A DNA stretch of 64,000 nt, taken from Phytoactinopolyspora halotolerans (GTDB lineage Bacteria; Actinomycetota; Actinomycetes; Jiangellales; Jiangellaceae). How positions within the stretch are numbered: the first letter of the stretch is position 1; each line of letters opens with the position of its first letter. Where the stretch lies: positions 1 through 64,000 of the forward strand of contig NZ_JAAGOA010000013.1 in NCBI RefSeq assembly GCF_010550675.1. Direction: 5' to 3'. Positions 39,235 to 62,186 of this stretch are shown here, in pieces. A program made the position numbers and the translations under genes. The notes below the pieces were generated by a model. That model searched no databases. It was not told the DNA's origin and worked only from the letters and a program-made list of their open reading frames with translations.

Positions 39235-39307
39235 GCATGGTGCGCTGAGTGCTCGCCAGTGCGTCCGGCGGAATGTCCCGTTTGAGGAGGTCCCCACCGC
39301 ACCATGC
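39235..39307. repeat. 73-bp palindromic element, family C copy 1
   Basis: Ends GCATGGTGCG and its complement form a terminal inverted repeat. Outer 25 bases match, with about four changes, the reversed ends of the element at 50774-50842. It fills the gap between hyuA's end and hyuB's start. Confidence 0.75.
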
Positions 39308-45610: not shown

Positions 45611-46300
45611 TCAGCCGCCGGTTCGTCGCCGGCCGGCGATGCGCGCGCCTACCGCCACACCGGCCAGTGCGATCGCCGCGCCCGCCAGCACGCCCCAGGC
45701 GAACTCCTGCCGCGCCACCATCCCCGCCCGGCCTGGACGGCCGGCCGTCGACGGCTCGTACACCGCACTCGCCGCCGGGCGTGCCCGGCCCTGCTCGTCA
45801 TCGCTCTGCGCCGTCTCATCCGCTCCCGCCGGGCGCTGCGCCGGGATGGCGCCCACATCCACGCCGGCCAGCACGTCGTCCACCGCGGCGAAGAACTCAC
45901 CCGCCGTTTTCGTCGCCACCCCGGTGAGCATCCGCTGGCCGACACCGGCGATCATGCCGCCGACGATCGCGTCCGCATCGTACTCCAGCCGAGTCGTGCC
46001 GGTACCGTTCTCGTGCAAACTCACCCGTACGTCGGCGCTCACCGTCCCCGGCGCACCGGAGCCGGACGCGCGCAGCAGGAACGACGACGGCTCGTCCTGC
46101 TCTCCCAGGCGAACCTGGCCGGCATACGTGCCCTTCACCGAGCCGACCCCCGCGCGCACCGTCATCGCGTAGGTGTCGGTGCCCGTCTCCTCCAGCCGCA
46201 CACAACCCGGAATGGTGCGCACCAGCACAGCAGGGTCGTTGAGCGCGCTCCACACCCGCTCGCGCGTGGCGTGCAACGTCGCCGAGCCGCTCACCTTCAT
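45611..46300 (-). CDS. CoxG-like SRPBCC protein with membrane anchor
   Basis: A 229-aa protein. Residues about 1-145 form the CoxG/SRPBCC ligand-binding fold (KVSGSATLHATRERVWSALNDPAVLVRTIPGCVRLEETG) with KGTYAGQVRLGE and GGMIAGVGQRMLTGVATKTAGEFF. A disordered linker (about 150-190) and one C-terminal helix (about 198-217) follow, fitting the CoxG role of holding the molybdenum hydroxylase at the membrane. Confidence 0.9.
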   Translation of the reverse strand: MKVSGSATLHATRERVWSALNDPAVLVRTIPGCVRLEETGTDTYAMTVRAGVGSVKGTYAGQVRLGEQDEPSSFLLRASGSGAPGTVSADVRVSLHENGTGTTRLEYDADAIVGGMIAGVGQRMLTGVATKTAGEFFAAVDDVLAGVDVGAIPAQRPAGADETAQSDDEQGRARPAASAVYEPSTAGRPGRAGMVARQEFAWGVLAGAAIALAGVAVGARIAGRRRTGG

Positions 46301-46477: not shown

Positions 46478-48871
46478 CTACGGCGCTTCGTCGGCAGCAC
46501 CGTGCCCCTCCCGCCTGAGGTCGTGCAGTTCACTCGGGGAGATCGGCATCCGCGAGATCCGGATGCCCTCGGCGTCCTCGATCGCCGACGCCAGCACCGC
46601 CGCACCCGGGATCACCCCGGCCTCCCCCGCCCCCTTGATGCCGAGCGGGTTCAGCGGCGAGGGCGTCTGCAGGTGGTCGGTCTCGATCATGGGAACCTCG
46701 GTCGAATACGGCATCAGAAAGTCCATGAACGACGCGTTGAGCAGCTGGCCCGCGTCGTCGTAGACCATCCGCTCGTACAGCGCGCCGCCGACGCCCTGTG
46801 CCACCCCTCCGTGGATCTGGCCTTCCACGATCCGTGGATTGATCAGCGTGCCGCAGTCATGCACCACGCAATACCGCAGGATCGAGATCTCGGCCGTGTC
46901 CGGGTCGGTCTCGACGATCGCGGCGTGCATGCCGTTGGCGAACGTGGACCGGGGCGGCGAGTAGTAGCCGGTCGCCTCCAGGCCCGGCTCGTCGCCCTCG
47001 GCCACCGGCGGCTTCTCCGGATCCGAGGGGCCGGCGAACTGCGTGGCCCGCTTGGCCTCGTCATCGAACGCGTACCGCAGCGGGTTGGACAGCACGGCGA
47101 CGGTGGACAGCGGCACGCTCGCGCCCGGCACGCCCTTGACCCGGACCTCGCCGTCAGCCAACTCGAGATCCCGCGGATCCGCCTCCAGCGCCTCGCCGGC
47201 CACGCGCAGCGCCTTCTCCTTCACCTGGCGCGCGGCCAGCGCCACGGCGTTGCCGCTCATCACGGCGGCGCGGGAGGCGAACGTCCCCACGGCGTAGCCG
47301 AAACGGCGGGTGTCGCCCGTGGTCACCACCACGCGGTCCACCGGTACGCCCAGCTCGTCGGCGACGACCTGCGCGAATACCGTCTGGTGGCCTTGGCCCT
47401 GGGTGGTGAGCCCAGTGGCGACGACGACGGTGCCGTCGGTCTCCACCTTGACGAAGCCGCCCTCGTACGGGCCGACCCCGGTGCCCTCGACGTAGCAGGC
47501 GATGCCGATGCCGACGCGCCGCCCCTCGGCCCGGGCCGCCGCCCGGTATTCGGCGAACTCATCCCAGCCGATCAGCTTCTTCAGCTTCTCCAGCGTGGCC
47601 GGGTAGTCGCCGGAGTCGTAGATCAGCGGCCGCCCGTCCTGGAAGGTCAGCCCGTGGTCGTAGGGCATCTCGCCGGGCTGGATGAAGTTCCGCTCCCGGA
47701 CGGTGACGCGGTCCAGGCCGAGGTGCTCCGCGATCGCGTCCATGGTGCGCTCCATCGCGAAGCAACCTTGCGGCCGGCCCGCGCCTCGGTACGGCGTGAC
47801 CGTGAGAGTGTTCGTGTACAGGCTGAAGAACTCCGCCCGGTACGCTCCCGGTTTGTACGGTCCGAGCAGCTGCGTCGTGGTGATGATCGGGACGATGATC
47901 CCGTACGGCGTGTAGGCGCCGTTGTCGTGCCACACGGTCACGTCCAGGCCGTGGAGCCGCCCGTCGTCGTCGAATCCGACTCGCACGTGCTGAAACTGGC
48001 CGCGCTCGTGCGCGCTGGAGACGAAATGTTCGCGGCGGTCCTCGGTCCATTTCACCGCGCGACCGAGGCGGATCGCCGCCATCGGGACCAGCACTTCCTC
48101 CGGCCACGGATGCACGATCTTCACGCCGAACCCGCCGCCCACGTCGGGCGCGATCACCTCGACCCGGTCCGCCGGCAGCTCCAGCTTGGCCGCGACCGCG
48201 GCTCGAACCGAGGTGGATGCCTGCGTGGAGGTGTAGACGCGCAGGCTACGGTCGTCCGGGTCCCAACGGGCGTGCACTCCCCGGCCCTCCAGCGGCGTGG
48301 ACGCGCTGCGCTCGATCTCCAGGTCGAGCTCGAGGACGTTCGGTGCCTGTGCGATCGCCGACGGCGCGTCGCCCGACTCCTGCACCAGGTGGGCCGAGAC
48401 GTTGTCTGGGACGTCGTCGTGGACCAGCAGCGCGGCGGAGCGTGCCGCTTCGATGCCGACGACGGGCGGGAGCGGGTCGTACTCGACGGCGATTCGGTCG
48501 CAGACGTCCTCGGCGACGTAACGATCCGTGGCGACGACCATCACCACCGGCTCGCCGACGTGGTTCACCTCGTCCTTGGCCAGCACGTACGGGGTCCGGC
48601 CGTGGGTCAGGCCAGGGTGCGGGATGAGAATCGGCAGCGGCTCGGCCATCCGGTCGCGCAGATCCTCGTACGTGTAGATCGCCACCAGACCATCGACGTC
48701 GAGCGCGTCCATGACGTCGATGTCGACGATGCGTGCGTGCGCGTGCGGGCTGCGTACAAATGCCACCTCCAGCGCGTCGCCCCCGATATCGTCGACGTAG
48801 CGGCCCTCGCCGGTGAGCAGCCGTGGGTCCTCGGCGCGGGGAATCGGCTCACCGACCGTCCTCGTCGTCAT
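46478..48871 (-). CDS. Molybdenum hydroxylase large subunit (xanthine dehydrogenase/CoxL family)
   Basis: A 797-aa molybdopterin-cytosine-dinucleotide subunit. Residues about 1-120 form the small N-terminal domain (IPRAEDPRLLTGEGRYVDDI); the Mo-binding part follows, with VIAPDVGGGFGVK and a base Glu in GIKGAGEAGVIP near the C-terminus. The active-site loop is TPYRGAGRPQGCFAMER (about residues 359-375), the form II/xanthine-type loop. It lacks the AYXCSFR of true CO dehydrogenase, so oxidation of a heterocycle or aldehyde is expected. Overlaps CoxS by 4 bases. Confidence 0.93.
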   Translation of the reverse strand: MTTRTVGEPIPRAEDPRLLTGEGRYVDDIGGDALEVAFVRSPHAHARIVDIDVMDALDVDGLVAIYTYEDLRDRMAEPLPILIPHPGLTHGRTPYVLAKDEVNHVGEPVVMVVATDRYVAEDVCDRIAVEYDPLPPVVGIEAARSAALLVHDDVPDNVSAHLVQESGDAPSAIAQAPNVLELDLEIERSASTPLEGRGVHARWDPDDRSLRVYTSTQASTSVRAAVAAKLELPADRVEVIAPDVGGGFGVKIVHPWPEEVLVPMAAIRLGRAVKWTEDRREHFVSSAHERGQFQHVRVGFDDDGRLHGLDVTVWHDNGAYTPYGIIVPIITTTQLLGPYKPGAYRAEFFSLYTNTLTVTPYRGAGRPQGCFAMERTMDAIAEHLGLDRVTVRERNFIQPGEMPYDHGLTFQDGRPLIYDSGDYPATLEKLKKLIGWDEFAEYRAAARAEGRRVGIGIACYVEGTGVGPYEGGFVKVETDGTVVVATGLTTQGQGHQTVFAQVVADELGVPVDRVVVTTGDTRRFGYAVGTFASRAAVMSGNAVALAARQVKEKALRVAGEALEADPRDLELADGEVRVKGVPGASVPLSTVAVLSNPLRYAFDDEAKRATQFAGPSDPEKPPVAEGDEPGLEATGYYSPPRSTFANGMHAAIVETDPDTAEISILRYCVVHDCGTLINPRIVEGQIHGGVAQGVGGALYERMVYDDAGQLLNASFMDFLMPYSTEVPMIETDHLQTPSPLNPLGIKGAGEAGVIPGAAVLASAIEDAEGIRISRMPISPSELHDLRREGHGAADEAP

Positions 48872-49569
48872 CGGTGCGCCTTCCCGGCACCCGGAGCGGT
48901 CTGATCGCGACCGTCGGTCTGGTCGCGACCGTCGGTCTGGTCGCGACCGTCGGTCTGGTCGCGACCGTCGGTCTGGTCGCGACCGTCGGTCTGGTCGTCA
49001 CCGTCCAGCAGCTGGGCTGCCCGCAGCACCGAGGCGACGATGTTCTGGTATCCGGTGCAGCGGCACAGGTTGCCCGCGATCGCCTCGCGTGCCTCCGCTT
49101 CGGTGGGTGACGGATTCTCCTCCAGGTAGGCCGTGATCGTCGTCACGAAGCCCGGCGTGCAGAATCCGCACTGCAACCCGTGGCAATCACGGAACGCCTG
49201 CTGCACCGGGCCGAGCCCGCCGTCGGGTGTGCCGCACCCTTCTATCGTGGTGATCTGGGCACCGTCGTGCATCACCGCGAACTGCAGACAGGAGCGGATC
49301 GGCCGGCCGTCCAGCAACACCGTGCAGGCACCGCAGACACCGTGTTCGCAGCCGACGTGGGTGCCGGTGAGTCCCAGGTCGTGGCGGAGGAAATCGGACA
49401 GCAGCCGCCGCGCCGGCACGCTCGCCGACCGGTGCACGCCGTTGACCACCGCGTGGACCTCATGCAGACCCTCGTCGCCGGATCCGTCGCTCGTCGTCGC
49501 CGCCTGGTCGCTAGTCACCTGGCCGTGTGCCGCCTGGCCGTTCGTCGTCGCAGATTGTTGGTCGCTCAC
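48868..49569 (-). CDS. Molybdenum hydroxylase iron-sulfur subunit (CoxS family)
   Basis: A 233-aa [2Fe-2S] subunit. The plant-type cluster is in GCEHGVCGACTVLLDG; the second cluster uses QCGFCTPGFV and NLCRCTGYQNI. A disordered 35-residue N-terminus rich in Thr and Gln and a C-terminal DQTDGR repeat tail (about residues 192-225) make it longer than the usual 160 residues. The tail may be harmless or mediate contact with other subunits. Overlaps both neighbours by 4 bases. Confidence 0.93.
   Translation of the reverse strand: MSDQQSATTNGQAAHGQVTSDQAATTSDGSGDEGLHEVHAVVNGVHRSASVPARRLLSDFLRHDLGLTGTHVGCEHGVCGACTVLLDGRPIRSCLQFAVMHDGAQITTIEGCGTPDGGLGPVQQAFRDCHGLQCGFCTPGFVTTITAYLEENPSPTEAEAREAIAGNLCRCTGYQNIVASVLRAAQLLDGDDQTDGRDQTDGRDQTDGRDQTDGRDQTDGRDQTAPGAGKAHR
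48899..49006 (-). repeat. 18-bp minisatellite inside the CoxS gene
   Basis: Five exact or near-exact 18-base units (GGTCTGGTCGCGACCGTC on the plus strand) and a degenerate sixth encode DQTDGR repeats at the C-terminus of the small iron-sulfur subunit. The unit length keeps the reading frame, so copy number can change without loss of the gene. Confidence 0.9.
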
Positions 49570-50507
49570 GATACGCGCCTCGCCCGCGTGGCGCCGTCGA
49601 TCTGCTCGGCGGACTCGGCGGATTCGCCGCGCTCCGCCCGGCCGGCGGCTTCCCGTAGCGCCCGCTCGGTCAGCACCGCGGCGAGATGCTTGCGGTAGTG
49701 TGCGGTAGCGTGGATGTCGTCCCCCGGCGTCAGCTGTTCAGCCGCCCACCGACCCACGGTGGCCCAGTCGGCCGTGTGCAGCGGAGCGGCGTCGAGCTCG
49801 TCGGTCACGTCCAGCACCACCGGCGTCGGACCGACCGACACGTATGCGGTGCGGGCAGCGCGGACGCGCCGGTCGTCGTCGATCGTCACCAGTGCACCGA
49901 CGCCGCACAGGGCGTAATCACCGTTGCGGCGGGCCACCTCGACCCAGGAGGAACCGGTGCGCGGGACGGGGACGGGAAAGAGCGCCGACGTGGCGAGTTC
50001 GTCCGGCTCGACGCACGACTCCAGTAGTCCGACGAAGAACTCCGTTGCCGGCACCGTGCGCGTGCCCCGGGTGCTGCGCAGCTCCACCGAACCGCCCAGC
50101 AACGCCAGCACGGCGGTCAGTTCACCCGCCGGGTCCGCGTGCACCAGACTGCCTACCGTGGTCCCGCGGTTGCGGATGGTCGGGTGTGCGACGCACGCCA
50201 GCGCCTGCTGCAGCAGCGGTACCGCTCGGCCCGCGTCGTGATCCCGCTCGACGTCCGCGTGCCGCGCGGTGGCGCCGACCCGCACGCCCGACCGTCCGTC
50301 ATCCTGGCCCTCGACCTGGACGAATCCGAGATCTGGAAGATGGTTGATATCCACCAGGTGCTGCGGGGCGGCGAGACGCATGTTCATCATCGGCACCAGG
50401 CTCTGCCCGCCGGCGATGACCTTCCCTTCCGGGCCGACCTCGGCCAGCACGTCGAGGGCCTCCTCGACGGTCTGTGGCCGGTGGTAGGTGAACCCGGGTG
50501 GTTTCAC
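49566..50507 (-). CDS. Molybdenum hydroxylase FAD subunit (CoxM family)
   Basis: A 313-aa FAD subunit that takes electrons from the iron-sulfur clusters. The FAD-binding loops are VIAGGQSLVPMMNMRL and TIRNRGTTVGSLVHADPAGELTAVL; the C-terminal domain has the usual ELDAAPLHTADWATVGRWA and HYRKHLAAVL region. I take the GTG at 50507, which has AGAAGG just upstream and gives the normal family length; an ATG at 50585 would add 26 atypical residues. It is the first gene of coxM-coxS-coxL-coxG. Confidence 0.9.
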   Translation of the reverse strand: MKPPGFTYHRPQTVEEALDVLAEVGPEGKVIAGGQSLVPMMNMRLAAPQHLVDINHLPDLGFVQVEGQDDGRSGVRVGATARHADVERDHDAGRAVPLLQQALACVAHPTIRNRGTTVGSLVHADPAGELTAVLALLGGSVELRSTRGTRTVPATEFFVGLLESCVEPDELATSALFPVPVPRTGSSWVEVARRNGDYALCGVGALVTIDDDRRVRAARTAYVSVGPTPVVLDVTDELDAAPLHTADWATVGRWAAEQLTPGDDIHATAHYRKHLAAVLTERALREAAGRAERGESAESAEQIDGATRARRVS

Positions 50508-50773
50508 ATCGCCTTCTTCCGTCCTCAGGGTCGTGTCATCCGTGACGCGGACCTCCGCACATCCTGATGCAGGAAACTTAGGCATCCGACCTTACGCCCG
50601 CATGGGCATGTTCTGCCGACGACGCGGCGCCGACCTCGGCAATCTCTGCGCGGTCCCGCCGGCTGGCCCGCGCGCAGCTCCAGCTGGGCCCTGTCCCACG
50701 TTCCAGTTCGGACGAGACGATGAGCGTCGCCGCGCGCTCCCGTTCCGGACCTCCGCCGCCGCCCTTACCGGTC

Positions 50774-51350: not shown

Positions 51351-53099
51351 TCAGGGGCGTTCCATGCCGCGCATCTGGAGCACCTTCAACGCCAGGGCGA
51401 GGTCCAGGCGCAGTTCGGGATCGGTGGTGAACGGGCCGAGTATCCGCTCCAGCTTGCTGATCCGGTAGCGCAGCGTGTTGTAGTGGAAATGCAGCGTCCG
51501 CGCTGCCTCGGCCACGTTCAGGTTCGCGTCCAGCAGGATCTTCAGGGTATGCCGCAGGTCCGCCATGTCCTCGTCGTCCGTCGCCGCCAGCTCACGCAGC
51601 GTCTCCCGGATGAACCCGCGCAACTCGTCGTTGTCCCTGATCAGGCTGATCAGCCGGAATGACCGCAACGCGTCGAAATGCGCCACGGCTCCGGATCCGT
51701 GCACCTGCCGGCCTACGTGGACCGCCCGCCTGGCCTGCTCGTATGCGGCCGGCAGCTCGTCCGGCCCGGTCACCACCCGGCTGACCCCGGTGGAGAAGGA
51801 ACGGCGGCCGCCCCCACCATCCCCGGAGACCTCCCGGACGACGTCTTGCACCACCGCCTCGGCGTTCCCGAACGGCACCGGGAGCAACGCCACCACCTCA
51901 CGGGCGAAGCCGACAACCGGCGCGCGCCGGTCGCGCCTCCCCACCACGGTCTGCCACGCGGTGCTGAACCGCTCCTGGATGGGACGGAGCTCGAAGCCGG
52001 ATTCCGGCAGGTCGTTCGCATCGGGGTCGACCTCGGCGACCGCGACCACCATCGGACGGTCGATCTGCCAGCCGAGCGTCTCGCAGTGCGCCACCACCTG
52101 TTCCCGGCCCCCGGCCCGCCCGGCCAGCACGTCCCGCAGGAAGTCGCCCCGGTACTTGCTCTCCACCGCCGTGACGGCCAGCTGCTTGTTCACCGACAGC
52201 GCGGCCACCGTTGCGGCCCGCTCCAGCACGTGCACGTCCCCGTCGTCGAGCCGCCGGTCGGCGGAGAAGGCGACGATCCGGCCGTGGTCCACCCGGCCCG
52301 CCACGATCGGCACGACGGCGTGCCACCCGGGTACGTCCGCGTGCGCGTGCACACCGCGCTGCTCGTACTCGATGCGGAATCTGCCGGTCTCCTCGAAGCA
52401 GGCACTGGCCCTCCACGCCTCCAGATCCGCCGGTTCGCCCCCGTCCGCCAGGACGCGCCCGTCGGGCGTGGTGACGAACACGGACGCCGGCAGCGTGGCC
52501 GCCACCCGGTCGGCGATCTCCTCCAGGCCGCCCCCGTCCAGCACGATGGCCAGCAACGCCTGGTGCACTTCCCAGGAACGTTCGAGCGCGCCCGCTTGCC
52601 GGTTGAGCACCTCGGTCAGGACCTGATTGATGATCTCGTCGAACCCGATCGCGTCGGGCAGGAGCAGCAGCGGCAGGTCGAGACGGTCCGCCTCGGCCAC
52701 CATCTGCTCCGGCAGCGCATCCAGGTAGCGGTGCAGTTTGACGCCCATCGCGGCGAGTCCGTGGCGCTGCAGGTCGCAGACGAGCTCGGGCAGACCCTGC
52801 GGCGTGTTGCGCAGCGGATAGCCCGTGGTCAGCAGAAGCTCGTGTGGCTTCACCCACGGGAGGATGTCGGGCACCTCCATCACATTGGCCCGCAGGATGA
52901 CGCGGTCCAGCCCGCCGGCGCCGCCCATCAGCCTGGCTCCGGCCAACGCCGGCATCTCCATCGCCTTGCGCACGGTCAGGCCGGTCGGCGTCAGCCTGGG
53001 GGCCGGAGCGGGCGAATCCGCCGCGAGGCCGGTCGGGCGCGCGCCGGTTTCTGGCAAATCCGGCGAACCAGCGGCCCGATCGTTGGCAAGTTTTTCCAT
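51351..53099 (-). CDS. PucR-family transcriptional regulator
   Basis: A 582-aa PucR/CdaR-type activator. Residues about 42-165 are the PucR N-terminal domain (TVRKAMEMPALAGARLMGGAGGLDRVILRANVMEVPDI). A GGDEF-like/GAF middle region follows. The C-terminal helix-turn-helix (about 505-575) is LRHTLKILLDANLNVAEAARTLHFHYNTLRYRISKLERILG. PucR proteins control purine or ureide catabolism. It diverges from the DUF2877-FdrA-DUF1116 operon and stands downstream in position from coxM, so it is the likely regulator of both. ATG 53099. Confidence 0.93.
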   Translation of the reverse strand: MEKLANDRAAGSPDLPETGARPTGLAADSPAPAPRLTPTGLTVRKAMEMPALAGARLMGGAGGLDRVILRANVMEVPDILPWVKPHELLLTTGYPLRNTPQGLPELVCDLQRHGLAAMGVKLHRYLDALPEQMVAEADRLDLPLLLLPDAIGFDEIINQVLTEVLNRQAGALERSWEVHQALLAIVLDGGGLEEIADRVAATLPASVFVTTPDGRVLADGGEPADLEAWRASACFEETGRFRIEYEQRGVHAHADVPGWHAVVPIVAGRVDHGRIVAFSADRRLDDGDVHVLERAATVAALSVNKQLAVTAVESKYRGDFLRDVLAGRAGGREQVVAHCETLGWQIDRPMVVAVAEVDPDANDLPESGFELRPIQERFSTAWQTVVGRRDRRAPVVGFAREVVALLPVPFGNAEAVVQDVVREVSGDGGGGRRSFSTGVSRVVTGPDELPAAYEQARRAVHVGRQVHGSGAVAHFDALRSFRLISLIRDNDELRGFIRETLRELAATDDEDMADLRHTLKILLDANLNVAEAARTLHFHYNTLRYRISKLERILGPFTTDPELRLDLALALKVLQMRGMERP

Positions 53100-53196: not shown

Positions 53197-54045
53197 GTGA
53201 CAGTCGCGCCGCTGCGGCACCGTACCGCGCCATCCAGCACCCGGACGACGTTGGCCGCCGCCGCGAGCACCGCCGTCCAGCCACTCCTCGTCGCGCCGCC
53301 TCGCCGCGGGCACGTGGTCGCCAGCACCAGCGACTTGCTGGCCGTCCAGGTGCCGGGCGTGCGCCACGGGCTGATCTGCCTCACCGGCACTCGTGCGGTC
53401 CGCATTCCGTGCGCGATGGTACTCGCCGGCCCGGTACCGCAGATCGATGTCGGCACACCGGTCGAGGTAGGCGCCGGCCGGGTCACGCTCCCTGAGATCA
53501 CGGTGTCGGCGATCCGCTGGTGGCAGCCGCGCCGACCACTGGTGGCCGACCCGGTGGGTGCGGTGCGGCGGGCCGGTCGCTGTCCCGCGCCCGACCTGGA
53601 CGCGCCCGTCCTCGAGGCCGCGGCGGGTCTCGCCTGCGCTCTGCACTCGACCGCACTCCGCCTGGACGAGTCGGTCACCGCCCTGCTCGGGCTCGGTCCC
53701 GGTCTCACGCCCGCCGGCGACGACGTGCTGGCCGGCGCCGTCGTCGCCTTCCGGTCGATCCGCAGCAGCGTCGCCGACGAGCTGACCGAAGTGATCTCCG
53801 CGGCCGCACCGCCCACCCGGACCACAGCGGTCTCCGCGGCGCTGCTCCGCTACGCCTGCGAGGGGCACTGCGTGCCTGAGCTCGCCCGCTTCCTGGGCTG
53901 CCTCAGCGCTCCGCAAGCGAACGTGATCGCCGCCTACCGGGAGCTGCTCGGTGTCGGCCACACCTCCGGCGCCGGCCTGTACGCCGGGGTGCTCTCGGCC
54001 CTGGCCGGGCCCGCCGCGCTCTCCCCGAGCCGGAGACGCGCATGA
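53197..54045 (+). CDS. DUF2877 protein (AllH/YlbF-like)
   Basis: A 282-aa protein with the DUF2877 hallmark LLGLGPGLTPAGDDVLAGAVVAFRS near residue 165. In E. coli the homologue YlbF (AllH) forms oxamate carbamoyltransferase with FdrA (AllF) and YlbE (AllG). That enzyme splits N-carbamoyl-oxamate with phosphate to carbamoyl phosphate. GTG start with AGGAGG upstream; its end overlaps fdrA by 4 bases, so the trio is translated together. No carbamate kinase gene is seen in the window. Confidence 0.87.
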   Translation: MTVAPLRHRTAPSSTRTTLAAAASTAVQPLLVAPPRRGHVVASTSDLLAVQVPGVRHGLICLTGTRAVRIPCAMVLAGPVPQIDVGTPVEVGAGRVTLPEITVSAIRWWQPRRPLVADPVGAVRRAGRCPAPDLDAPVLEAAAGLACALHSTALRLDESVTALLGLGPGLTPAGDDVLAGAVVAFRSIRSSVADELTEVISAAAPPTRTTAVSAALLRYACEGHCVPELARFLGCLSAPQANVIAAYRELLGVGHTSGAGLYAGVLSALAGPAALSPSRRRA

Positions 54046-55658
54046 CCCGGGACCTCTCGGTGCGGCCCGGCGTGTACCACGACTCGGTCGCGCTGATGCA
54101 GGTCAGCCGCAGCGTCGCCGACGAGCCCGGAGTCAACGCGGCGCTGGTGGCGATGGCCACACCGCTCAATGTGGATCTCGCGGCCGGGATGGGGTTCACC
54201 GCGCCGGATGGAGCCGGCCCGAACGACCTCATGATCGCCATCGACGCCGCAGACGACGATGCGCTGGCCCGGGCACGTGCAATCGTGGAGGCGGCGCTGG
54301 CCGGGCGCCGGGCCCAGGCGACGCAGGCCCACCAGTCCGACGCCGGACCGCAGCCGCGCACCCTGGGTTCGGCGGTGGAGCGCTCCGACGCGACGGTCGC
54401 GTTCGTCGCCACCCCGGGGCCGCACGCCTTCGTCGACGCGATGGACGCCCTGCTCAGCGACGTGCCGGTGGTGGTGTTCTCGGACAACGTCTCCGTCGCG
54501 GACGAGGTTCGGCTCAAGCAGGCGGCCCAGCGGCGCGGATTGCTGGTGATGGGACCGGACTGCGGCACCGCCGTCATCTCCGGCGTGGGGTTCGGCTTCG
54601 CCAACGTGGTGCGGCCCGGCCCGGTCGGCATCGTGGCGGCGTCCGGCACCGGCGCGCAGCAGCTGATGTCGCTGTTGGACGCGTCCGGAGCCGGGATCAG
54701 CCACTGCCTCGGGGTGGGCGGACGCGACATGTCCGACGAGGTGGGCGCCCTGTCGACGCTGACCGCCCTGGACATGCTGGCGGCCGACCCGGCGACCGAG
54801 GTGATCGTCGTCGTCGGCAAGCCGCCGGGACGACGTGCTGCGGAGCAGGTCCACGAACACGCCGCCACCCTGACCACGCCGGTGCTCTTCGCCATGCTCG
54901 GCCCGGGGCAACCGGACCTGACCGCTGCCGCGCGGTCCGCCGTCGAAACCCTCGGTATGCCGTGGCAGGAACCTCGATCCTGGGCGGCGCCCGACGACGC
55001 CGCGCCGACGACCCCACCGGCCGCCGACGTCGCCCCCCGCTACGTACGCGGTCTGTTCTCCGGCGGCACGCTCTGCGACGAGGCGATGGCGGTGGTCGCC
55101 GCCGAGCTCGGCCCGGTGTACTCCAACATCCCGCTGCGGCCGGAGTGGTCGCTCGGCACCGATCTGCAGCCGATGTCCGCGGCGGGCGTCGAGCACCACG
55201 TCATGGTCGACTTCGGCGACGACGCGCTGACCCTGGGCCGGCCGCATCCGATGATCGACGGCTCGTTGCGCGCTCATCGCATGCTGGCCGAGGCGCTGGA
55301 CCCCACCTGTGGAGTGCTGCTGCTCGACGTCGTGCTCGGCCATGGCGCCCACCCCGACCCCGCGGCCGAACTCGCCCGGGTGATCGCGGAGTGCCGGACG
55401 ATCGCCTCCCGACGCGGCCGGGAACTGCCGGTGGTGGTCTCCTTGATCGGAACGGCGGGCGACCCGCAGGATCTCGACCGCCAGGCGGAGGCGCTGAACG
55501 GTGCCGGCGCGTCCGTCCATCTGTCCAACGCGGCCGCCGCGCGCGAGGCGGTCCGCCACGTCGTCGCGCCCTCCTCCGGCCTCCCGCCGACACCCACGGC
55601 GAGGCCGACGACGCCGCCGACGACGAGGCCAACGCCGACCTATCGGAGTGACGGATGA
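54042..55658 (+). CDS. fdrA: FdrA-like acyl/carbamoyl transferase subunit
   Basis: A 538-aa protein with a CoA-ligase-like fold in two halves. The first has a Rossmann domain, LLVMGPDCGTAVISGVGFGFANVVRPGPVGIVAASGTGAQQLMSLL, close to the CoA-binding domain of succinyl-CoA synthetase. The second (about residues 330-500) holds VRGLFSGGTLCDEAM and LLLDVVLGHGAHPDPA. Homologous to E. coli FdrA (AllF). The gene is the middle of a tightly overlapping trio (ATGA overlaps at both ends). The C-terminal 35 residues are Pro/Thr-rich. Confidence 0.88.
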   Translation: MTRDLSVRPGVYHDSVALMQVSRSVADEPGVNAALVAMATPLNVDLAAGMGFTAPDGAGPNDLMIAIDAADDDALARARAIVEAALAGRRAQATQAHQSDAGPQPRTLGSAVERSDATVAFVATPGPHAFVDAMDALLSDVPVVVFSDNVSVADEVRLKQAAQRRGLLVMGPDCGTAVISGVGFGFANVVRPGPVGIVAASGTGAQQLMSLLDASGAGISHCLGVGGRDMSDEVGALSTLTALDMLAADPATEVIVVVGKPPGRRAAEQVHEHAATLTTPVLFAMLGPGQPDLTAAARSAVETLGMPWQEPRSWAAPDDAAPTTPPAADVAPRYVRGLFSGGTLCDEAMAVVAAELGPVYSNIPLRPEWSLGTDLQPMSAAGVEHHVMVDFGDDALTLGRPHPMIDGSLRAHRMLAEALDPTCGVLLLDVVLGHGAHPDPAAELARVIAECRTIASRRGRELPVVVSLIGTAGDPQDLDRQAEALNGAGASVHLSNAAAAREAVRHVVAPSSGLPPTPTARPTTPPTTRPTPTYRSDG

Positions 55659-57100
55659 GCGCACTGGACACCCTGCTGACGGCCGAACCACGGGTCGCGG
55701 CGGCCGGGGCCGACCTGCTCATCGACAGTCTCGGCGCCCAGGCGGTACCGGTCGAGCGGGTCGAGTGGCGGCCTCCGCTGCCCGGCACGGAGAACAGCCT
55801 GGCCACGGTAGTGGCCGACCCGCGCCGAGCCGAGGCCAACCGGCAAGCGCTCGACCGCATGCTCGCGTCCACGTCCGAGCTGGTCGACGTCCGCCCGGCC
55901 CGGGACGCGCTGGGACTCCAGCCCGGCGAGCTCCTGCACGCCGGTCCCCCGTTGACCTGGGATCGGGCGTCCGGCCCGATGCGCGGCGCGCTGATCGGTG
56001 CGATGATCTTCGAAGGCCTCGCAGACTCGCCGGACAGCGCCGAGGCGAAGCTGGCGGCCGGCGCGGGAATCACCCTCACCCCGTGCCACGAGCGCGGCGC
56101 CGTCGGCCCGATGGCGGGCGTGGTCTCCCCTTCGATGTGGATGTTCGAGCTGCGTGACGAGGCGAACGACGGCACGTCCTGGTGCTCGCTGAACGAAGGG
56201 CTCGGCAAGGTGCTGCGATACGGCGCCTACTCCGACGACGTCATCGAGCGGCTGCGCTGGATGAGCGCCGTGCTCGGACCGCTGCTGCAGGCTGCGGTGC
56301 GTCGGCGCGGCCGGATCGACATCAAGGCCATCGTGGCGCAGATGGTGCAGATGGGCGACGAGGGTCACAACCGGAATCGGGCCGGTACCCTCATGCTCCT
56401 GCGCGAGCTGCTGCCTGACCTGATCGAGTGCGGCGCACCGTCGTCGCAGGTCGCTGAGGTCACCCGGTTCGTCTCCGGGAACGATCACTTCTTCCTCAAC
56501 CTGGTCATGCCGACCGGCAAGCTGCAGACGGCCGCCGGGGCCGGAATCGCCGGCAGCACCGTGGTCACCACCATGGCACGCAACGGCACCGACTTCGGCA
56601 TTCAGGTGTCCGGCACGGGTGACGAGTGGTTCACCGCCCCCGCTGACACACCGGACGGGCTGTTCCTCGGCTCCTTCGGACCGGACGACGCCAATCCCGA
56701 CATCGGCGACTCGGCCGTCTGCGAGACGATGGGCATCGGCGGGTTCGCCATGGCCGCCGCTCCGGCCATCGTGCGGTTCGTCGGCGGCTCGGTTCCGCTG
56801 GCGCTGCACACCAGCCGGTTGATGTACGAGATCACGCTGGCGGAGAACCCCGCGTACGCGTATCCGATCCTGGATTTCCGCGGCGCACCCACCGGGATCG
56901 ACGTCACCCTCGTCGCCCGCACCGGCGTGCTGCCGCAGATCAACACCGGGATGGCCGGCAAGGTGGCCGGCACCGGCCAGGTGGGCGCCGGCCTGGTCAA
57001 GCCGCCCGCGGCGTGTTTCACCGCAGCGCTGGACGCCCTTGCCGCGCGGACGCCCGGGCCGGCCGCCGATTCGCCCTCGCCACCGAAGTCGGTCGTCTGA
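55655..57100 (+). CDS. DUF1116 protein (AllG/YlbE-like)
   Basis: A 481-aa protein matching DUF1116, the large catalytic-like subunit of the FdrA system: NRQALDRMLASTSELVDVRPARDALGL, TLTPCHERGAVGPMAGVVSPSMWMFEL, QMGDEGHNRNRAGTLMLLRELLPDLIE and NGTDFGIQVSGTGDEWFTAPADTP. Homologous to YlbE (AllG). It is last in the DUF2877-FdrA-DUF1116 operon. Next comes an XRE-cupin regulator on the same strand, 125 bases on. Confidence 0.87.
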   Translation: MSALDTLLTAEPRVAAAGADLLIDSLGAQAVPVERVEWRPPLPGTENSLATVVADPRRAEANRQALDRMLASTSELVDVRPARDALGLQPGELLHAGPPLTWDRASGPMRGALIGAMIFEGLADSPDSAEAKLAAGAGITLTPCHERGAVGPMAGVVSPSMWMFELRDEANDGTSWCSLNEGLGKVLRYGAYSDDVIERLRWMSAVLGPLLQAAVRRRGRIDIKAIVAQMVQMGDEGHNRNRAGTLMLLRELLPDLIECGAPSSQVAEVTRFVSGNDHFFLNLVMPTGKLQTAAGAGIAGSTVVTTMARNGTDFGIQVSGTGDEWFTAPADTPDGLFLGSFGPDDANPDIGDSAVCETMGIGGFAMAAAPAIVRFVGGSVPLALHTSRLMYEITLAENPAYAYPILDFRGAPTGIDVTLVARTGVLPQINTGMAGKVAGTGQVGAGLVKPPAACFTAALDALAARTPGPAADSPSPPKSVV

Positions 57101-57139: not shown

Positions 57140-57225
57140 GCCATGGCTGAGATTCCGTCGAGAGATCGCCCGACGGCGGATCGGCGTCGACGGATGTGCG
57201 CACCGGACCTAGGTACGCTGTGCCC

Positions 57226-57930
57226 GTGACCTCTCCGGTACCGTTCCCAGCCGACGACGACGCCGGCCGCACGTTGGACGACGAACCCGGCCGCCCATTG
57301 GACGACGAGGCCGGGCGTCGACCAGACGACGAGCCGGGTGGCCGGATGGACGACGAGCCCAGCCGACAACTAGAAGGAGTCATCGCCAACCAGGTGCGCG
57401 AGTACCGGCTCACCGCGGGCCTGTCCGTCGCTGAGCTCGCCGCCCGGGCCGGCATCTCCAAGGCGATGCTGTCCAAGATCGAGAACGTGCAGACGTCGTG
57501 CTCGCTGACGACGCTCGGCCGGCTCGCGAGGGCGCTGGGCGTGCCGGTCACCGCGCTCTTCCGCGGGGTCGACACCGAGCGCGAAGCCGTGTTCACCAAG
57601 GCGGGCCACGGCGCCGTCATCGTCCGGCGCGGCACCGGCGTCGGCCACGTCTACCGGCTGCTCGGGGAGCTGCAAGGGTCACAGACCAGGATGGAGGCGC
57701 ACGTGGTCGAGCTCAGTGAGAGCTCGGACGTGTTCCCGCTGTTCGAGCACCCCGGCACCGAGCTGATCTACATGCTGGAGGGCGCCATGGTGTACGGACA
57801 CGGCGAAGCCCGGTATGAGATGCGGGCCGGCGATGCGCTCCAGTTCGACGGCGAGGGTCCGCACGGTCCCGATACCCTGCTCGAGTTCCCGATCCGGTTC
57901 CTCTCCGTGGTCGCCTACCCCGATCACTGA
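57226..57930 (+). CDS. XRE-family regulator with cupin domain
   Basis: A 234-aa regulator. After a 50-residue repeat-rich tail comes a helix-turn-helix (REYRLTAGLSVAELAARAGISKAMLSKIENVQTSCSLTTLGRLARALGVPVTALF) and a small cupin (about residues 150-230, FEHPGTELIYMLEGAMVYGHGEARYEMRAGDALQFDGEGPHGP) for a small ligand. GTG 57226 lies 6 bases after TACGCT, so a leaderless start is likely; an earlier GTG at 57196 is possible. Its position after the FdrA trio suggests it regulates that operon or the NCS2/Mo genes. Confidence 0.9.
   Translation: MTSPVPFPADDDAGRTLDDEPGRPLDDEAGRRPDDEPGGRMDDEPSRQLEGVIANQVREYRLTAGLSVAELAARAGISKAMLSKIENVQTSCSLTTLGRLARALGVPVTALFRGVDTEREAVFTKAGHGAVIVRRGTGVGHVYRLLGELQGSQTRMEAHVVELSESSDVFPLFEHPGTELIYMLEGAMVYGHGEARYEMRAGDALQFDGEGPHGPDTLLEFPIRFLSVVAYPDH
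57253..57372 (+). repeat. 24-bp in-frame repeats at the N-terminus of the XRE regulator
   Basis: Five 8-residue units follow the pattern DDEPGRxL (DDDAGRTL, DDEPGRPL, DDEAGRRP, DDEPGGRM, DDEPSRQL). The DNA units are 24 bases and keep frame. Probably disordered and fast-evolving. Confidence 0.85.
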
Positions 57931-58040: not shown

Positions 58041-58634
58041 CTACGGTTTCGTGACGTCCAGATCTTCCGGATAGTCGACGTCGTCCGGGCGGCCGGTGTT
58101 GTCGCACGGCACCGCGGTCACCAGCTCAGGATGCCGGATCATGAACGCGCGCGCCCCCTGATCGCCCTCGGCCAGCGCCGCCACGTCCGCCCATACCTCG
58201 CGGCCGAGCAGGACCGGGTTGCCGCGCGCTCCGCCGTACGTGGCCGCGGCGACGAACGCGCCGCCCACTCGTGCCGCGCGCAGCCGCCGGACCGCCTCCG
58301 GCCCCAGCCACGGTTGGTCCACCAGCGCCACCACGACGGCGTCCACCTCGTACTCGCGGACGGCGTCCAACCCCGCCCGCAGCGACGAGCCCATCCCAGA
58401 CTGCCAGTCCGGGTTATACACCAGGTGGATCGGGACACCGGCGGGATGTCCGGAGACCTCCAGGCCGACAGCACCTTCGACGACGACGATCGGCGTGCAG
58501 CCACCGTCGGCCAGCAGGCGCACCGCGCGGTCGACCAGCCGTTCCCCCGCGACCTCCACCAGGGCCTTCGGTGTGCCGAACCGCCGCCCTTCACCCGCCG
58601 CGAGCACCAGTCCTCCTGCCGTCGCCGTCGTCAT
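58041..58634 (-). CDS. MocA/MobA-like nucleotidyltransferase
   Basis: A 197-aa nucleotidyltransferase. The nucleotide site is GLVLAAGEGRRFGTPKALVEVAGERLVDRAV; the acidic metal site follows in AVVVALVDQPWLGPEAV, and the GARGNPVLLGR motif is typical of MocA. MocA adds CMP to molybdopterin to give the cytosine-dinucleotide cofactor of xanthine-dehydrogenase-type enzymes, which matches the CoxMSL genes here. It is last of four co-directional maturation genes. Confidence 0.9.
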   Translation of the reverse strand: MTTATAGGLVLAAGEGRRFGTPKALVEVAGERLVDRAVRLLADGGCTPIVVVEGAVGLEVSGHPAGVPIHLVYNPDWQSGMGSSLRAGLDAVREYEVDAVVVALVDQPWLGPEAVRRLRAARVGGAFVAAATYGGARGNPVLLGREVWADVAALAEGDQGARAFMIRHPELVTAVPCDNTGRPDDVDYPEDLDVTKP

Positions 58635-58651: not shown

Positions 58652-59797
58652 CTACGAAATCGCCCCGCCGGCCAGAGGTCTCGCCTCGCGCTCGCCGATG
58701 CGGTCGTGGTGAATCGGGCCGGTCAATTCACTCAGCCTCCGTCCCGAGCCGCCCCATCGCGCCGCGATGATCTCCGCGGCGATCGAGATCGCCGTCTCCT
58801 CCGGCGTGCGAGCCCCGATGTCCAGCCCCACCGGCGCCGACATCCGGCCCAGCTCCTCCTCGCTCAGGCCCAGCTCGCGCAGGCGCGCCAGCCGGTCCGC
58901 GTGCGTGCGCCGGGACCCCATCACCCCGATGTACGCGGCGGGTGTGCGCAGCGCCGCTTCCAGCAACGGCACGTCGAACTTCGGATCGTGGGTGAGCACG
59001 CAGATCACGGTCCGCGCATCCACGCTCACCCCGGCCAGGAAGTCGTGCGGCCAGCTCACCACCACCTCGTCGGCATCCGGGAACCGCCGCTGGGTCGCGA
59101 ACACCGGCCGGGCGTCGCAGACCGTGACGTGATACCCCAGGAACTTGCCGATACGGACCACCGCGGCCGCGAAATCGATCGCCCCGAACACCAGCATCCT
59201 GGGCCGCGGCGCGAACGACTGGACGAGAACCTCCAGCTCGTCCATCCGTCGCTCGCCGTCGGCACCGTACCGCCGCACACCCGTGATGCCCTGGTCGAGC
59301 ATTCCCCGCGCGTCGTCGGCGACCGCGTCGTCCAGACGCTGTCCGCCGAGGCTTCCCTCCGTAGTATCCGGCCACACCACCAGGTGCGCGCCCGGCTCGC
59401 CCGGTCCGGACACCACCGTCGCCAGCGCCACCGGCTCGTGCCGCTGCACCGTCTCCGCCAGCGCACCCAGCTGCGGGAAGGTCTGGGCATCGACCGCCTC
59501 GACGAAGACGTCGATCGTGCCGCCACAGGTCAGGCCGACGGCGAATGCGTCGTCGTCGCTCACGCCGTAACGCTGCTTGACCGGCTCGCCCCCGGCGATC
59601 ACCTCCTGCGCCAGCTCGTAGACCGCACCCTCGATGCACCCGCCGGATACGCTGCCGACGGCTTCTCCCGTGTCGGTCACCAGCATCGACGCACCGGCCG
59701 GCCGTGGTGCCGACTGGAAGGTGCCGACGACCGTCACCAGGCCCGCTCGGCCGCCGCGCCGCACCACCGACACCAGGTCGGACATCACCTCACGCAT
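58652..59797 (-). CDS. XdhC/CoxI-family maturation protein
   Basis: A 381-aa XdhC. The N-terminal XdhC_CoxI domain (GLVTVVGTFQSAPRPAGASMLV and GSVSGGCIEGAVYELAQEV) is followed by a Rossmann domain (PRMLVFGAIDFAAAVVRIGKFLGYHVTVCDARPVF) and AYIGVMGSRRTHADRLARLREL. XdhC inserts the sulfurated molybdenum cofactor into the enzyme. It starts inside the end of the VWA gene (8 bases overlap). Confidence 0.93.
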   Translation of the reverse strand: MREVMSDLVSVVRRGGRAGLVTVVGTFQSAPRPAGASMLVTDTGEAVGSVSGGCIEGAVYELAQEVIAGGEPVKQRYGVSDDDAFAVGLTCGGTIDVFVEAVDAQTFPQLGALAETVQRHEPVALATVVSGPGEPGAHLVVWPDTTEGSLGGQRLDDAVADDARGMLDQGITGVRRYGADGERRMDELEVLVQSFAPRPRMLVFGAIDFAAAVVRIGKFLGYHVTVCDARPVFATQRRFPDADEVVVSWPHDFLAGVSVDARTVICVLTHDPKFDVPLLEAALRTPAAYIGVMGSRRTHADRLARLRELGLSEEELGRMSAPVGLDIGARTPEETAISIAAEIIAARWGGSGRRLSELTGPIHHDRIGEREARPLAGGAIS

Positions 59798-60971
59798 CGC
59801 TCACCGCCTCCGTAGCGTCCTGCAATCGGTGCGTCCCAGGCCACGGCGTGCAGGACGTCGTCGTTGTCAGCAGGATGGCCAGATCCTCCATCGCGCCGAG
59901 GGAATGACCCGCCACCAGATCGTCGATGTGCGGCAACGCCGCGCGCATCCCGCCGGTGCGCGGCGCGTAGCCGTCGTGGCCGCGATGGGGGTTGACCCAC
60001 ACCACCCGCCGCGCCAACCGCCGCAGCCGCGCCATCTGCTCGCCCAGCAGCGTCGGATCACCCTGCTCCCAACCGTCGCTGGCGAGCACGACGACGGCAC
60101 CCCGTGCGACGCCCCGCTGCCCCCACCGGTCCAGGAACTCCTTCACCTCCGGACCCAACCGGGTGCCACCGCTCCAGTCCGGGATGGCCTGCGACGCCTT
60201 GGCTATCGCGGCCGCGGCGCCCCGGCCGCGCAGCTCGCGCGTCAGCCTGGTCAACCGCGTGCCGACGGTGAACACCTCGGTGCCCGGACGCGCCCGGCAC
60301 GCCGCGTGCGCGAACCGAAGCACGGTGTCGGCGTATGGTGCCATCGAGCCGCTGACATCGATCAGGAATACCAGCCGGCGGGTCCGGCGCGACTTGCGGT
60401 GCCGGAGTACCTCCACCGGCTCACCGCCGCGGCGCATCATCGCCCGGATCGTGCGGCGCGCGTCGATCGTGCCGCCCGGTGCGGCCCGCATGCGCCGGGT
60501 GATGCGCTCCGGCACCGCGATCACGAGTGCGCTGAGATAGTGGTTCACCTCGGCCCGCTCGGCGGCGGTCAGCTCAGTCACGTCGCGGTTGCGGAGAACC
60601 TCGTGCCGGCTCGCCGTGGCCAGCTTCTCCGGCGGCGGCCCGTCGTTCTTCGCACCGGTCTCCGGCTGGCCGTCGGCGGGCGCGGCGACCATCCGGTACG
60701 CCGGTGCGACCTGCACCCGCGGCCGTGGCCGGCCCTGGCCAGCGCCGAAGTACGCGCTGAACACCTGGTCGTAGCGTTCGATGTCGTCGGGCGAGGCGCA
60801 CAGCGTCAACCGGCCGGACCAATAGACCGCACTCAGCGAGTCGGCGCCCAGTTCGGCCAGCGCACGCAGCATCATGTGCACGCGGGTCGGCGGCACCGAC
60901 GCCCCGGACGCACGCAGCCGGCCGGCGAACTCCACCACCGGCTCGACCGCGTGCTCGGGGCCTGCATTCAT
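59790..60971 (-). CDS. VWA-domain protein (CoxE family)
   Basis: A 393-aa CoxE-type protein. Residues about 1-190 form the helical region of the family; residues about 200-370 are the von Willebrand A domain with the MIDAS motif DVSGSMAPY and VVVLASDGWEQGD. CoxE works with the AAA protein CoxD in activating molybdenum hydroxylases. It overlaps coxD by 4 bases and xdhC by 8, so one operon is clear. Confidence 0.92.
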   Translation of the reverse strand: MNAGPEHAVEPVVEFAGRLRASGASVPPTRVHMMLRALAELGADSLSAVYWSGRLTLCASPDDIERYDQVFSAYFGAGQGRPRPRVQVAPAYRMVAAPADGQPETGAKNDGPPPEKLATASRHEVLRNRDVTELTAAERAEVNHYLSALVIAVPERITRRMRAAPGGTIDARRTIRAMMRRGGEPVEVLRHRKSRRTRRLVFLIDVSGSMAPYADTVLRFAHAACRARPGTEVFTVGTRLTRLTRELRGRGAAAAIAKASQAIPDWSGGTRLGPEVKEFLDRWGQRGVARGAVVVLASDGWEQGDPTLLGEQMARLRRLARRVVWVNPHRGHDGYAPRTGGMRAALPHIDDLVAGHSLGAMEDLAILLTTTTSCTPWPGTHRLQDATEAVSDA

Positions 60972-61894
60972 CCGGCCGTCTCCACCACCATCTCGCCGAT
61001 CTCCGCGCGGATCCGTTCGGTGTCTTCCTGGTACTTCAACACGGCCCCGAGAGTGCGGGAGGCCAGGTCCGCGTCGAGCTCCCGGGCCCCCAGCGCCGCC
61101 AGCGCCGCCGCCCAGTCGATGGACTCGGCGAGCCCGGGCGGCTTGAGCAGGTCGGCGGAACGCATCCGTTCCACCACGCGCGCCACGTCACTCGCCAGCC
61201 GCTCGCTCACCTCCGGCAGTCGCCGGGTGATCACCGCGATCTCGCGCTCGAACGTCGGATGGTCGAGCCAGTGGTACAGGCACCGCCGCTTCAGCGCGTC
61301 ATGCACCTCACGCGTGCGGTTACTGGTGACCACGACGGTCGGCGGGGTCTCCGCGCGCACCGTCCCCACCTCCGGGATGGAGATGGTGAAGTCCGAGAGC
61401 ACCTCCAGCAGAAACGCCTCGAACTCATCGTCCGCCCGGTCGATCTCGTCGATCAACAGCACGCACGGAACCTCCTCCAGCGCCCGCAGCAGCGGCCGCG
61501 CCACCAGGAACCGACGGTCGTAGAGTTCATGCTCCAACCGGTCGACGTCGGACACGCCGGCCGCCTCGGCGGCGCGCAGATGCAGCAGCTGCCGCGGGAA
61601 GTCCCAGTCGTAGAGTGCCTGGGCGGCGTCCACGCCCTCGTAGCACTGCAACCGGATCAATGGCGCGGACAACGCCGCGGACAGTGCATGCGCCAACGAC
61701 GTCTTGCCGACGCCGGCCTCCCCTTCGATGAACAGCGGGCGACGCATCCGCAGGGCGAGAAAGGCCGCGGTGGCCAAGCCGTCGTCGGCGAGATAACCGG
61801 CGGCATCCAGCCGCCTGGCCAGCTCCTCCGGCCCGGCGACGACGCCGTCGGTGGGCGGTCCGGATGCATCGGAGCGGTCCCGGATCTCCGTCAT
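60968..61894 (-). CDS. MoxR-type AAA ATPase (CoxD family)
   Basis: A 308-aa AAA protein: Walker A GEAGVGKTSLAHALS, Walker B CVLLIDEIDRADDEFEAFLLEVLSDF, sensor 1 VVVTSNRTREVHDALKRRCLYHWLDHP. CoxD is the chaperone-like ATPase that assembles the metal site of CoxL-type enzymes. First gene of the coxD-coxE-xdhC-mocA unit. Confidence 0.95.
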   Translation of the reverse strand: MTEIRDRSDASGPPTDGVVAGPEELARRLDAAGYLADDGLATAAFLALRMRRPLFIEGEAGVGKTSLAHALSAALSAPLIRLQCYEGVDAAQALYDWDFPRQLLHLRAAEAAGVSDVDRLEHELYDRRFLVARPLLRALEEVPCVLLIDEIDRADDEFEAFLLEVLSDFTISIPEVGTVRAETPPTVVVTSNRTREVHDALKRRCLYHWLDHPTFEREIAVITRRLPEVSERLASDVARVVERMRSADLLKPPGLAESIDWAAALAALGARELDADLASRTLGAVLKYQEDTERIRAEIGEMVVETAG

Positions 61895-62186
61895 GAAACA
61901 ACGCTACGCCCTCCACCCGTCCCGCGTCCCGCCCCTCGCCGGCGCCGCACCGACGCCGCCGCGCCGGGTGCTTGAGCCGGTTCCCACCATGGCGAAATCT
62001 GCCAGGATGGCCCTCGGCAACGTCGTGAACCTGCACACATGACCGAGCCGGCGCGATCGAGTACCGTCACGCAGAAGCTCCACCGGCGGGGCGATCAGGT
62101 GAGGCGGGCACGCGAGACAGGCAAGCTGGACGGCAGGACGCGCCGGCACTCCCGGGCGGCGCGCGATCCGAGTCAGGAGGCGCTTG
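61895..62186. other. Intergenic region between coxD and the NCS2 permease
   Basis: The 290-base gap between divergent coxD and the permease gene holds the promoters for both and a possible site GGCGAAATCTGCCA at 61991. No gene, RNA family or clear terminator is visible. A GC-rich stem near 62120-62165 (GGCACTCCCGGGCGGC) could fold in the leader, but I do not recognise a riboswitch. Confidence 0.5.

Follow-up and report, generated by a model that had tools for sequence, protein, structure and literature searches.

Organization of the locus

The stretch of DNA analysed here, referred to as the window, comprises 64,000 nucleotides of the genome of Phytoactinopolyspora halotolerans (contig NZ_JAAGOA010000013.1, positions 1 to 64,000; genome G000 in our set, 7.3 Mb in 65 contigs, rated 100% complete). 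It contains a gene trio homologous to AllF, AllG and AllH, the subunits of the oxamic transcarbamylase of Escherichia coli (PMC11326118), and a gene for a barbiturase. In the following sections, we describe the link between the two, which makes it likely that the trio provides a transcarbamylase step of oxidative pyrimidine degradation. The features on which this reading turns are:

53197..54045, + strand: AllH subunit (PF11392, 84 bits), with a GTG start and AGGAGG upstream
54042..55658, + strand: AllF (FdrA) subunit (PF00549, Ligase_CoA, 111 bits; FdrA model 392.5 bits against a cut-off of 433), with the GRPHPMID stretch kept
55655..57100, + strand: AllG subunit (PF06545, 317 bits; PDB homologue 3clq, 368 bits)
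51351..53099, - strand: PucR-family regulator divergent from the trio (PF07905, 112 bits; HTH_30; GGDEF_2), start placed at 53099
57196..57930, + strand: XRE-cupin regulator, the next gene 3' of AllG (PF13560, PF07883)
30783..31916, - strand: barbiturase, a ring-opening amidohydrolase (PF09663, 489 bits)
31917..32092, no strand: site of the carbamate kinase (ArcC) gene in relatives, judged from their gene order; none here, and no ArcC remnant among the tblastn matches

All three AllFGH subunits are encoded together in open reading frames, with AllH-AllF and AllF-AllG overlaps of 4 bases each (ATGA), and 97 bp separate PucR from AllH. The coordinates and profile matches confirm the first-pass annotation, made from the sequence alone, which had described a trio with two ATGA overlaps under a divergent PucR; control of the trio by this regulator is plausible from the arrangement. 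The statement that the E. coli trio sits with allantoin genes also holds, as allF-G-H adjoins ybcF and allantoin genes there. The GRPHPMID stretch of AllF is common to barbiturase-linked rows and E. coli, and one might guess at a role for its histidine. Within the order, 20 of 22 genomes contain AllG, among them every one of the 20 with a completeness of 90% or more, so that the presence of the trio is more than chance. The XRE-cupin gene after AllG has no counterpart listed there in the relatives whose gene order was read; such a gene lies near AllG in distant loci (G063, G210, G188 and the second copy of G407).

A barbiturase-type ring opener in the window

The ring-opening amidohydrolase of the window falls within the AtzD/Bar family (Group VI) and is 84% identical (678 bits) to PDB entry 5hwe, named "Barbiturase"; the best cyanuric acid hydrolase in the same PDB search reaches 327 bits. 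The protein holds all five specificity residues, N-H-K-V-S, and thereby matches the published barbiturase signature of Asn, His, Lys, Val and Ser/Ala (PMC3758960). A second source gives the barbiturase group glutamine, not asparagine, at one of these positions (PMC4051656); both the window protein and the PDB barbiturase have asparagine there. This enzyme presumably acts on barbiturate, and the product of barbiturase is ureidomalonate, or 3-oxo-3-ureidopropanoate (PMC3758960). Cyanuric acid hydrolases of the AtzD/TrzD type share the protein family and differ from the window protein by its N-H-K-V-S residues. This identity was rejected on the PDB score and the signature, though model NF052395 passes (480 against a cut-off of 360). 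A plasmid search for a Rhodococcus barbiturase gave 132 records, two of them above 60% identity (Nonomuraea and Embleya); the Embleya record is unannotated at the matching place.

Co-occurrence of AllG and barbiturase in Actinomycetota

A draw from the Actinomycetota, 396 genomes with that of the window among them, served to follow the distribution of the two genes; 49 contain AllG, 27 a PF09663 (AtzD/barbiturase) protein and 134 a carbamate kinase (E up to 1e-40). AllG is present in 22 of the 27 PF09663 genomes, and these 22 are all the genomes with a barbiturase-type protein (Fisher p ~1e-22, ignoring kinship). They span seven families (f1, f5, f6, f17, f34, f40 and f48), with half of them in f17. 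Their proteins are at least 62% identical to that of the window and carry N-H-K-V with S, A or G at the fifth position; the final G, seen in 10 of the 53 N-H-K-V copies read, departs from the published S or A. In the other five genomes, for which the draw-wide AllG search gave no match, the PF09663 proteins are 37-43% identical to the window's and none has the full signature: G071 and G212 show R-T-R-G-G, G202 and G318 show N-gap-G-G-G, and G213 has a partial copy. The first-pass annotation had offered another substrate for the trio as one option, and this near one-to-one link with barbiturase supports it well. Carbamate kinase was found in 20 of the 22 barbiturase genomes, with no row for the window genome and G300 (L087). 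The latter, 93% complete and from another lineage, has barbiturase and the trio.

Gene arrays and phylogeny of the trio

Scanning public genomes with an AllG alignment yielded 80 named actinobacterial loci, the best 80 of 546 relatives and hence close ones (61-78% identical to the window AllG). Among the 58 of these loci that extend over at least 20 kb, CoxL occurs in 54, an NCS2 permease in 53 and PucR in 48, and AllB, AllC and AllD were found in none. Barbiturase lay inside the fetched stretch in only 7 of the 58, so whole genomes were searched. The sample of 50 was picked by hand from the 80, mostly isolates; it includes five already known to have barbiturase (L153, L189, L190, L194 and L204) and leaves out three such (L178, L203 and L213). 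The barbiturase family (PF09663, 385-503 bits) was present in 49 of the 50 genomes and carbamate kinase in all 50. The specificity signature, read in 9 of the 49 proteins, was barbiturase-like in each. Barbiturase and ArcC lie on one strand with a gap of less than 500 bp in 44 of the 49 genomes.

The most complete array is a one-strand run in G329 that comprises barbiturase, a cytosine-deaminase-like protein, a permease, ArcC, AllH, AllF, AllG, CoxM, CoxS, CoxL, CoxG and an amidase. G407 and G338 follow this order as far as the Cox genes, within which their contigs end. G107 is similar, except that its barbiturase is found on another, short contig, next to the terminal part of the deaminase gene. 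Six f17 genomes (G030, G045, G072, G247, G374 and G391) contain barbiturase, permease, ArcC, AllF and AllG in this order, with no deaminase match. The AllH profile matched in all four loci checked besides E. coli and the window (two arrays and two named loci).

A quick tree of 100 AllG rows, several on long branches with unsure places, was built with 8 of the draw's 49 AllG genomes left out (G110, G113, G121, G124, G153, G274, G323 and G350). Of the 79 AllG rows from barbiturase genomes, 78 group together with one barbiturase-less row (96 in the SH-like approximate likelihood ratio test, SH-aLRT); the 79th is the second copy in G407. This genome (L116, L079) has one AllG in its barbiturase array and the other, which belongs to a different clade, near an ArcC match and an XRE-cupin gene. 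AllG of E. coli falls with two AllD-linked actinobacterial rows in a clade of their own (SH-aLRT 100), so the window protein does not group with the E. coli enzyme.

Side observations concern other carbamoyl phosphate enzymes. In eight genomes of genus g5 (G005, G006, G009, G010, G012, G013, G015 and G016), a gene of the aspartate/ornithine transcarbamylase (ATCase/OTCase) family lies 8-11 kb from AllG, in most of them with a dihydroorotase-like match alongside. In G010 (C34 398863-400764) and G014 (C402 2839-4741), a second above-cut-off carbamate kinase directly follows a third ATCase/OTCase-family gene, a layout as in the arginine deiminase operon.

Absence of allantoin genes and of carbamate kinase

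Searches of the window by tblastn with E. coli AllA, AllB, AllC, AllD and AllE and a relative's ArcC gave no match at 1e-15, which bears out the earlier observation that allantoin genes and carbamate kinase are absent from the 64 kb. The gene list of the contig from 60 to 120 kb, read by eye, suggested no allantoin genes downstream. A search of the whole genome, which the first-pass annotation had proposed, found no full-length carbamate kinase, no uricase and no allantoinase above the cut-off (best model match 222 bits against 358); AllA, AllC, AllD and AllE were searched for in the window. The best allantoinase-model match is probably a dihydroorotase, because it lies beside an aspartate/ornithine-type transcarbamylase gene. 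The genome does not show carbamate kinase and allantoin genes linked as in E. coli.

The trio might nevertheless be an ordinary oxamate carbamoyltransferase that acts on oxalurate, imported or made otherwise, as proposed for nitrifiers that have allFGHK and lack upstream purine genes (PMC12625717). Homology to the E. coli enzyme and this precedent favour such a function, as do the conserved residues: of the AllF and AllG positions with at least 97% conservation among barbiturase-linked rows, E. coli shares the majority. We consider it unlikely, since the strict link of the trio is to barbiturase, whereas in the order, in which 20 of 22 genomes have AllG, an above-cut-off allantoinase is found in 11 of 22 and uricase in 10 of 22, and since AllG of E. 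coli belongs to another clade.

Loss of carbamate kinase in the lineage of the window

Full-length carbamate kinase is present in 19 of the 22 genomes of the order and missing from G000, G018 and G003. G003 is only 75% complete and likewise has no AllG match; G004, 81% complete, has carbamate kinase and no AllG match. In all seven relatives read (G002, G011, G012, G017, G019, G020 and G021), ArcC adjoins barbiturase on the same strand. The open reading frame (ORF) on the other side of ArcC in G019 and G012 is related (41% and 51%, respectively) to the window ORF at 32093-33259. Both the window and G018 have barbiturase next to this type of ORF, with no ArcC between them. The two genomes are sisters in the AllG tree (SH-aLRT 97), which fits a single loss. 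Judged from the assemblies, carbamate kinase is lost in the window genome and its sister.

Candidates that could conceal or replace the kinase were also considered. An ArcC pseudogene in the window was rejected, as tblastn showed none, neither at 1e-15 nor with eight queries at E up to 10, where the matches listed were at chance level only. The genome's AA-kinase-family matches are four, LysC, ProB, ArgB and PyrH; replacement of ArcC by another AA kinase, or an ArcC elsewhere in the genome, was rejected because none was found. The first-pass option of another kinase using the carbamoyl phosphate is unsupported within this family.

Loss of the kinase could mean that the trio itself is a decaying remnant. 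In favour of decay, ArcC is missing in both G000 and G018, and the G018 barbiturase match (L045 17470-18709) is split over two reading frames, so that the gene may be broken or the sequence in error. On the other hand, AllH, AllF and AllG are open, and the window departs at only 1 of 90 strictly conserved positions of AllF and 1 of 131 of AllG, the two subunits compared. The ratios of nonsynonymous to synonymous differences (pN/pS) between G000 and G018 are 0.21 for AllG, 0.36 for AllF and 0.40 for AllH; two pairs with ArcC give 0.18 and 0.22, 0.33 and 0.41, and 0.47 and 0.61, respectively, so that none of the three ratios exceeds their range. This likeness indicates purifying selection, and the trio appears to be still in use without carbamate kinase; decay is, in our view, highly improbable.

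Two ATCase/OTCase-family genes, ordinary consumers of carbamoyl phosphate, remain in the window genome, and the earlier idea that the product supplies the synthesis of pyrimidines or arginine is plausible here, now that ArcC is seen to be lost. Among the options offered at first pass, another substrate has thus gained ground, another kinase has lost it, and anabolic use stands as plausible; the barbiturase of the window and the adjoining ArcC of relatives had gone unnoticed. The ArcC-less lineage offers a natural test of the destination of carbamoyl phosphate.

Other genes of the window cluster

A molybdenum hydroxylase locus brackets the trio, with its structural subunits and a CoxG-like protein at 45611-50585 and its maturation genes at 58041-61894. 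The cluster further comprises genes for possible upstream and downstream steps:

35000..36181, - strand: CoA-transferase family III, presumably activating malonate (PF02515, 415 bits)
37238..39238, - strand: HyuB-type hydantoinase/oxoprolinase subunit (PF02538, 444 bits)
39321..41477, - strand: HyuA-type hydantoinase/oxoprolinase subunit (PF01968, 281 bits)
42636..44048, - strand: cytosine-deaminase-like amidohydrolase (PF07969, 114 bits; cytosine deaminase subfamily model 244, below its cut-off of 438)
44210..45583, - strand: amidase, candidate malonamate amidase or ureidomalonase (PF01425, 278 bits)
45611..46300, - strand: CoxG-like protein (PF06240, 89.5 bits)
46478..48871, - strand: molybdenum hydroxylase large subunit, candidate uracil dehydrogenase (NF040766, 1533 bits; motif PYRGAGRP)
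48868..49569, - strand: molybdenum hydroxylase 2Fe-2S subunit (PF01799, PF00111)
49566..50585, - strand: molybdenum hydroxylase FAD subunit (glyceraldehyde-dehydrogenase-beta and XdhB-type models, below cut-offs)
58041..58634, - strand: MobA-like nucleoside triphosphate transferase, presumably with a MocA-type role (PF12804, 125.5 bits)
58652..59797, - strand: XdhC/CoxF-type maturation factor (NF045664, 215 bits, below its cut-off of 350)
59790..60971, - strand: CoxE-like VWA maturation protein (PF05762, 193.5 bits)
60968..61894, - strand: AAA ATPase (AAA families), CoxD-like by context
62184..63644, + strand: NCS2 nucleobase permease (PF00860, 303 bits; PbuX 275 and NCS2 246 bits, both below cut-off)

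Form I carbon monoxide (CO) dehydrogenases have the active-site motif AYXCSFR. The window large subunit has PYRGAGRP instead. Xanthine dehydrogenase was rejected as the identity of this neighbouring molybdenum enzyme, as its models stay under their cut-offs and score much lower than the CO-dehydrogenase-group model, and uricase is absent. The 2Fe-2S subunit (48868-49569) has a C-terminal tail of five DQTDGR repeats plus part of a sixth, which looks like a coding tandem repeat. For the permease of L137, which has the commonest arrangement, the best model is the pyrimidine permease RutG (336 bits, below cut-off), followed by NCS2 and uracil permease models. The specific permease models all stay below cut-off and thus do not fix the transported base. 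In some relatives, an AccA/AccD-like carboxyltransferase lies between the CoA-transferase and ArcC (L042 7427-8941), possibly for malonyl-CoA; the window gave no match to it at 1e-15. Elsewhere in the window, two ORFs of 184 amino acids (23112-23666 and 34360-34914) have almost identical N-termini, an apparent gene duplication.

A proposed transcarbamylase route from uracil

Ureidomalonate and oxalurate are both N-acylureas with a terminal carboxylate and lie one CH2 apart, so that a transcarbamylase that splits oxalurate could also split ureidomalonate. We propose that the trio is probably the enzyme that converts ureidomalonate to malonamate and carbamoyl phosphate, which would recover energy or nitrogen at a point of uracil breakdown where no enzyme of this type is known. 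In the complete route, the NCS2 permease would import the base, the cytosine-deaminase-like enzyme would yield uracil, and the CoxMSL-type molybdenum hydroxylase, conserved with the cluster, would oxidize uracil to barbiturate, which barbiturase would open to ureidomalonate. AllFGH, with phosphate, would then form malonamate and carbamoyl phosphate, by analogy with the conversion of oxalurate to oxamate and carbamoyl phosphate. Carbamate kinase would turn carbamoyl phosphate into ATP, CO2 and ammonia. Downstream, the amidase could deamidate malonamate, and the CoA-transferase could activate the resulting malonate. In the window genome and G018, which have no carbamate kinase, carbamoyl phosphate would probably pass to the aspartate/ornithine transcarbamylases.

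The amidase could alternatively be a ureidomalonase that releases malonate and urea, with the trio and ArcC acting on another ureido acid, such as one opened by HyuAB. The position of the amidase inside the cluster fits this arrangement, and HyuAB genes map to this region within the order and lie next to the trio in G053, G178 and G156. Against it stands the position of ArcC, a neighbour of barbiturase in 44 of 49 genomes. This adjacency is the best reason to derive carbamoyl phosphate from the barbiturase product, as it suggests, because the urea of the published route is not a known ArcC substrate. The scan for another transcarbamylase was the ATCase/OTCase-family search of the order, which placed one such gene 8-11 kb from AllG in eight genomes. 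We give this combined reading of amidase and trio little credence.

Several observations weigh against the proposed transcarbamylase role. The hydrolytic ureidomalonase route was reportedly found in Rhodococcus erythropolis. R. erythropolis JCM3132 is listed in the barbiturase group, and the published oxidative pathway continues after barbiturase with a hydrolytic ureidomalonase that gives malonate and urea (PMC3758960); the amidase at 44210-45583 is a candidate for exactly this step. Barbiturase and trio lie about 21 kb apart in the window. Barbiturase is missing from 27 of the draw's 49 genomes with AllG, and hence the AllFGH family has other uses. In G053, G178 and G156, HyuAB and CoxMSL accompany such a barbiturase-less trio, and Brevibacterium sp. 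ZH18, the sole miss among the 50 picked genomes, has no barbiturase but keeps the trio, with both ArcC and HyuAB no more than 10 kb away from it. The ATCase/OTCase-family gene near AllG in genus g5 may reflect chance or a use of carbamoyl phosphate. The model NF040766, which carries the name of CO dehydrogenase, passes its cut-off for the large subunit (1533 against 950), and the permeases of the window and G338 match the xanthine permease model best (275 and 272 bits, below cut-off).

The trio lies beside HyuAB and CoxMSL in barbiturase-less genomes of family f10 (L102, L108 and L133), a context that suggests a parallel ring-opening route to another acylurea. With some reserve, we lean towards a more general model, in which AllFGH enzymes form a broader group of transcarbamylases acting on N-acylureas, their branch in actinobacteria splits ureidomalonate phosphorolytically and, together with ArcC, gives ATP from uracil, CoxMSL is a uracil dehydrogenase, and the kinase-less lineage reuses carbamoyl phosphate anabolically.

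If the proposed route is correct, the transcarbamylase family described in 2024 gains a second substrate, a pathway described as hydrolytic becomes energy-conserving in several actinobacterial families, and two steps of oxidative pyrimidine degradation acquire genes. We know of no genes for these two steps, and none appeared by title in the literature searched on related terms. The present model names, CO dehydrogenase and acyl-CoA synthetase FdrA, would hide the pathway. No publication joining barbiturase with fdrA or carbamate kinase was found in the literature searched, which mostly excludes subscription papers, and among titles on allFGH, DUF1116 or DUF2877 none concerned barbiturate; prior publication of the link between barbiturase and the trio is possible.

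Comparison with known systems

A study of 2012 had already put the trio forward, on the grounds of its genomic context, as a candidate carbamoyltransferase (PMC3364942). Compared with E. coli AllFGH, the three subunits are homologous, with AllG 44% identical over 439 aligned residues and many conserved residues in common. The window differs in its H-F-G gene order, its barbiturase partner, the separate AllG clade, and the absence of allantoin genes and carbamate kinase. The allFGHK loci of nitrifiers with biuret genes likewise have the trio without upstream allantoin genes; these organisms carry carbamate kinase and biuret/triuret genes, and the available text mentions no link to barbiturase (PMC12625717). 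Finally, the oxidative pyrimidine pathway (Soong et al., as cited in the available text of PMC3758960) shares the barbiturase signature with the window. Its published last step is hydrolysis by ureidomalonase, whereas the route proposed here would end with a transcarbamylase and, in most of its carriers, a carbamate kinase.

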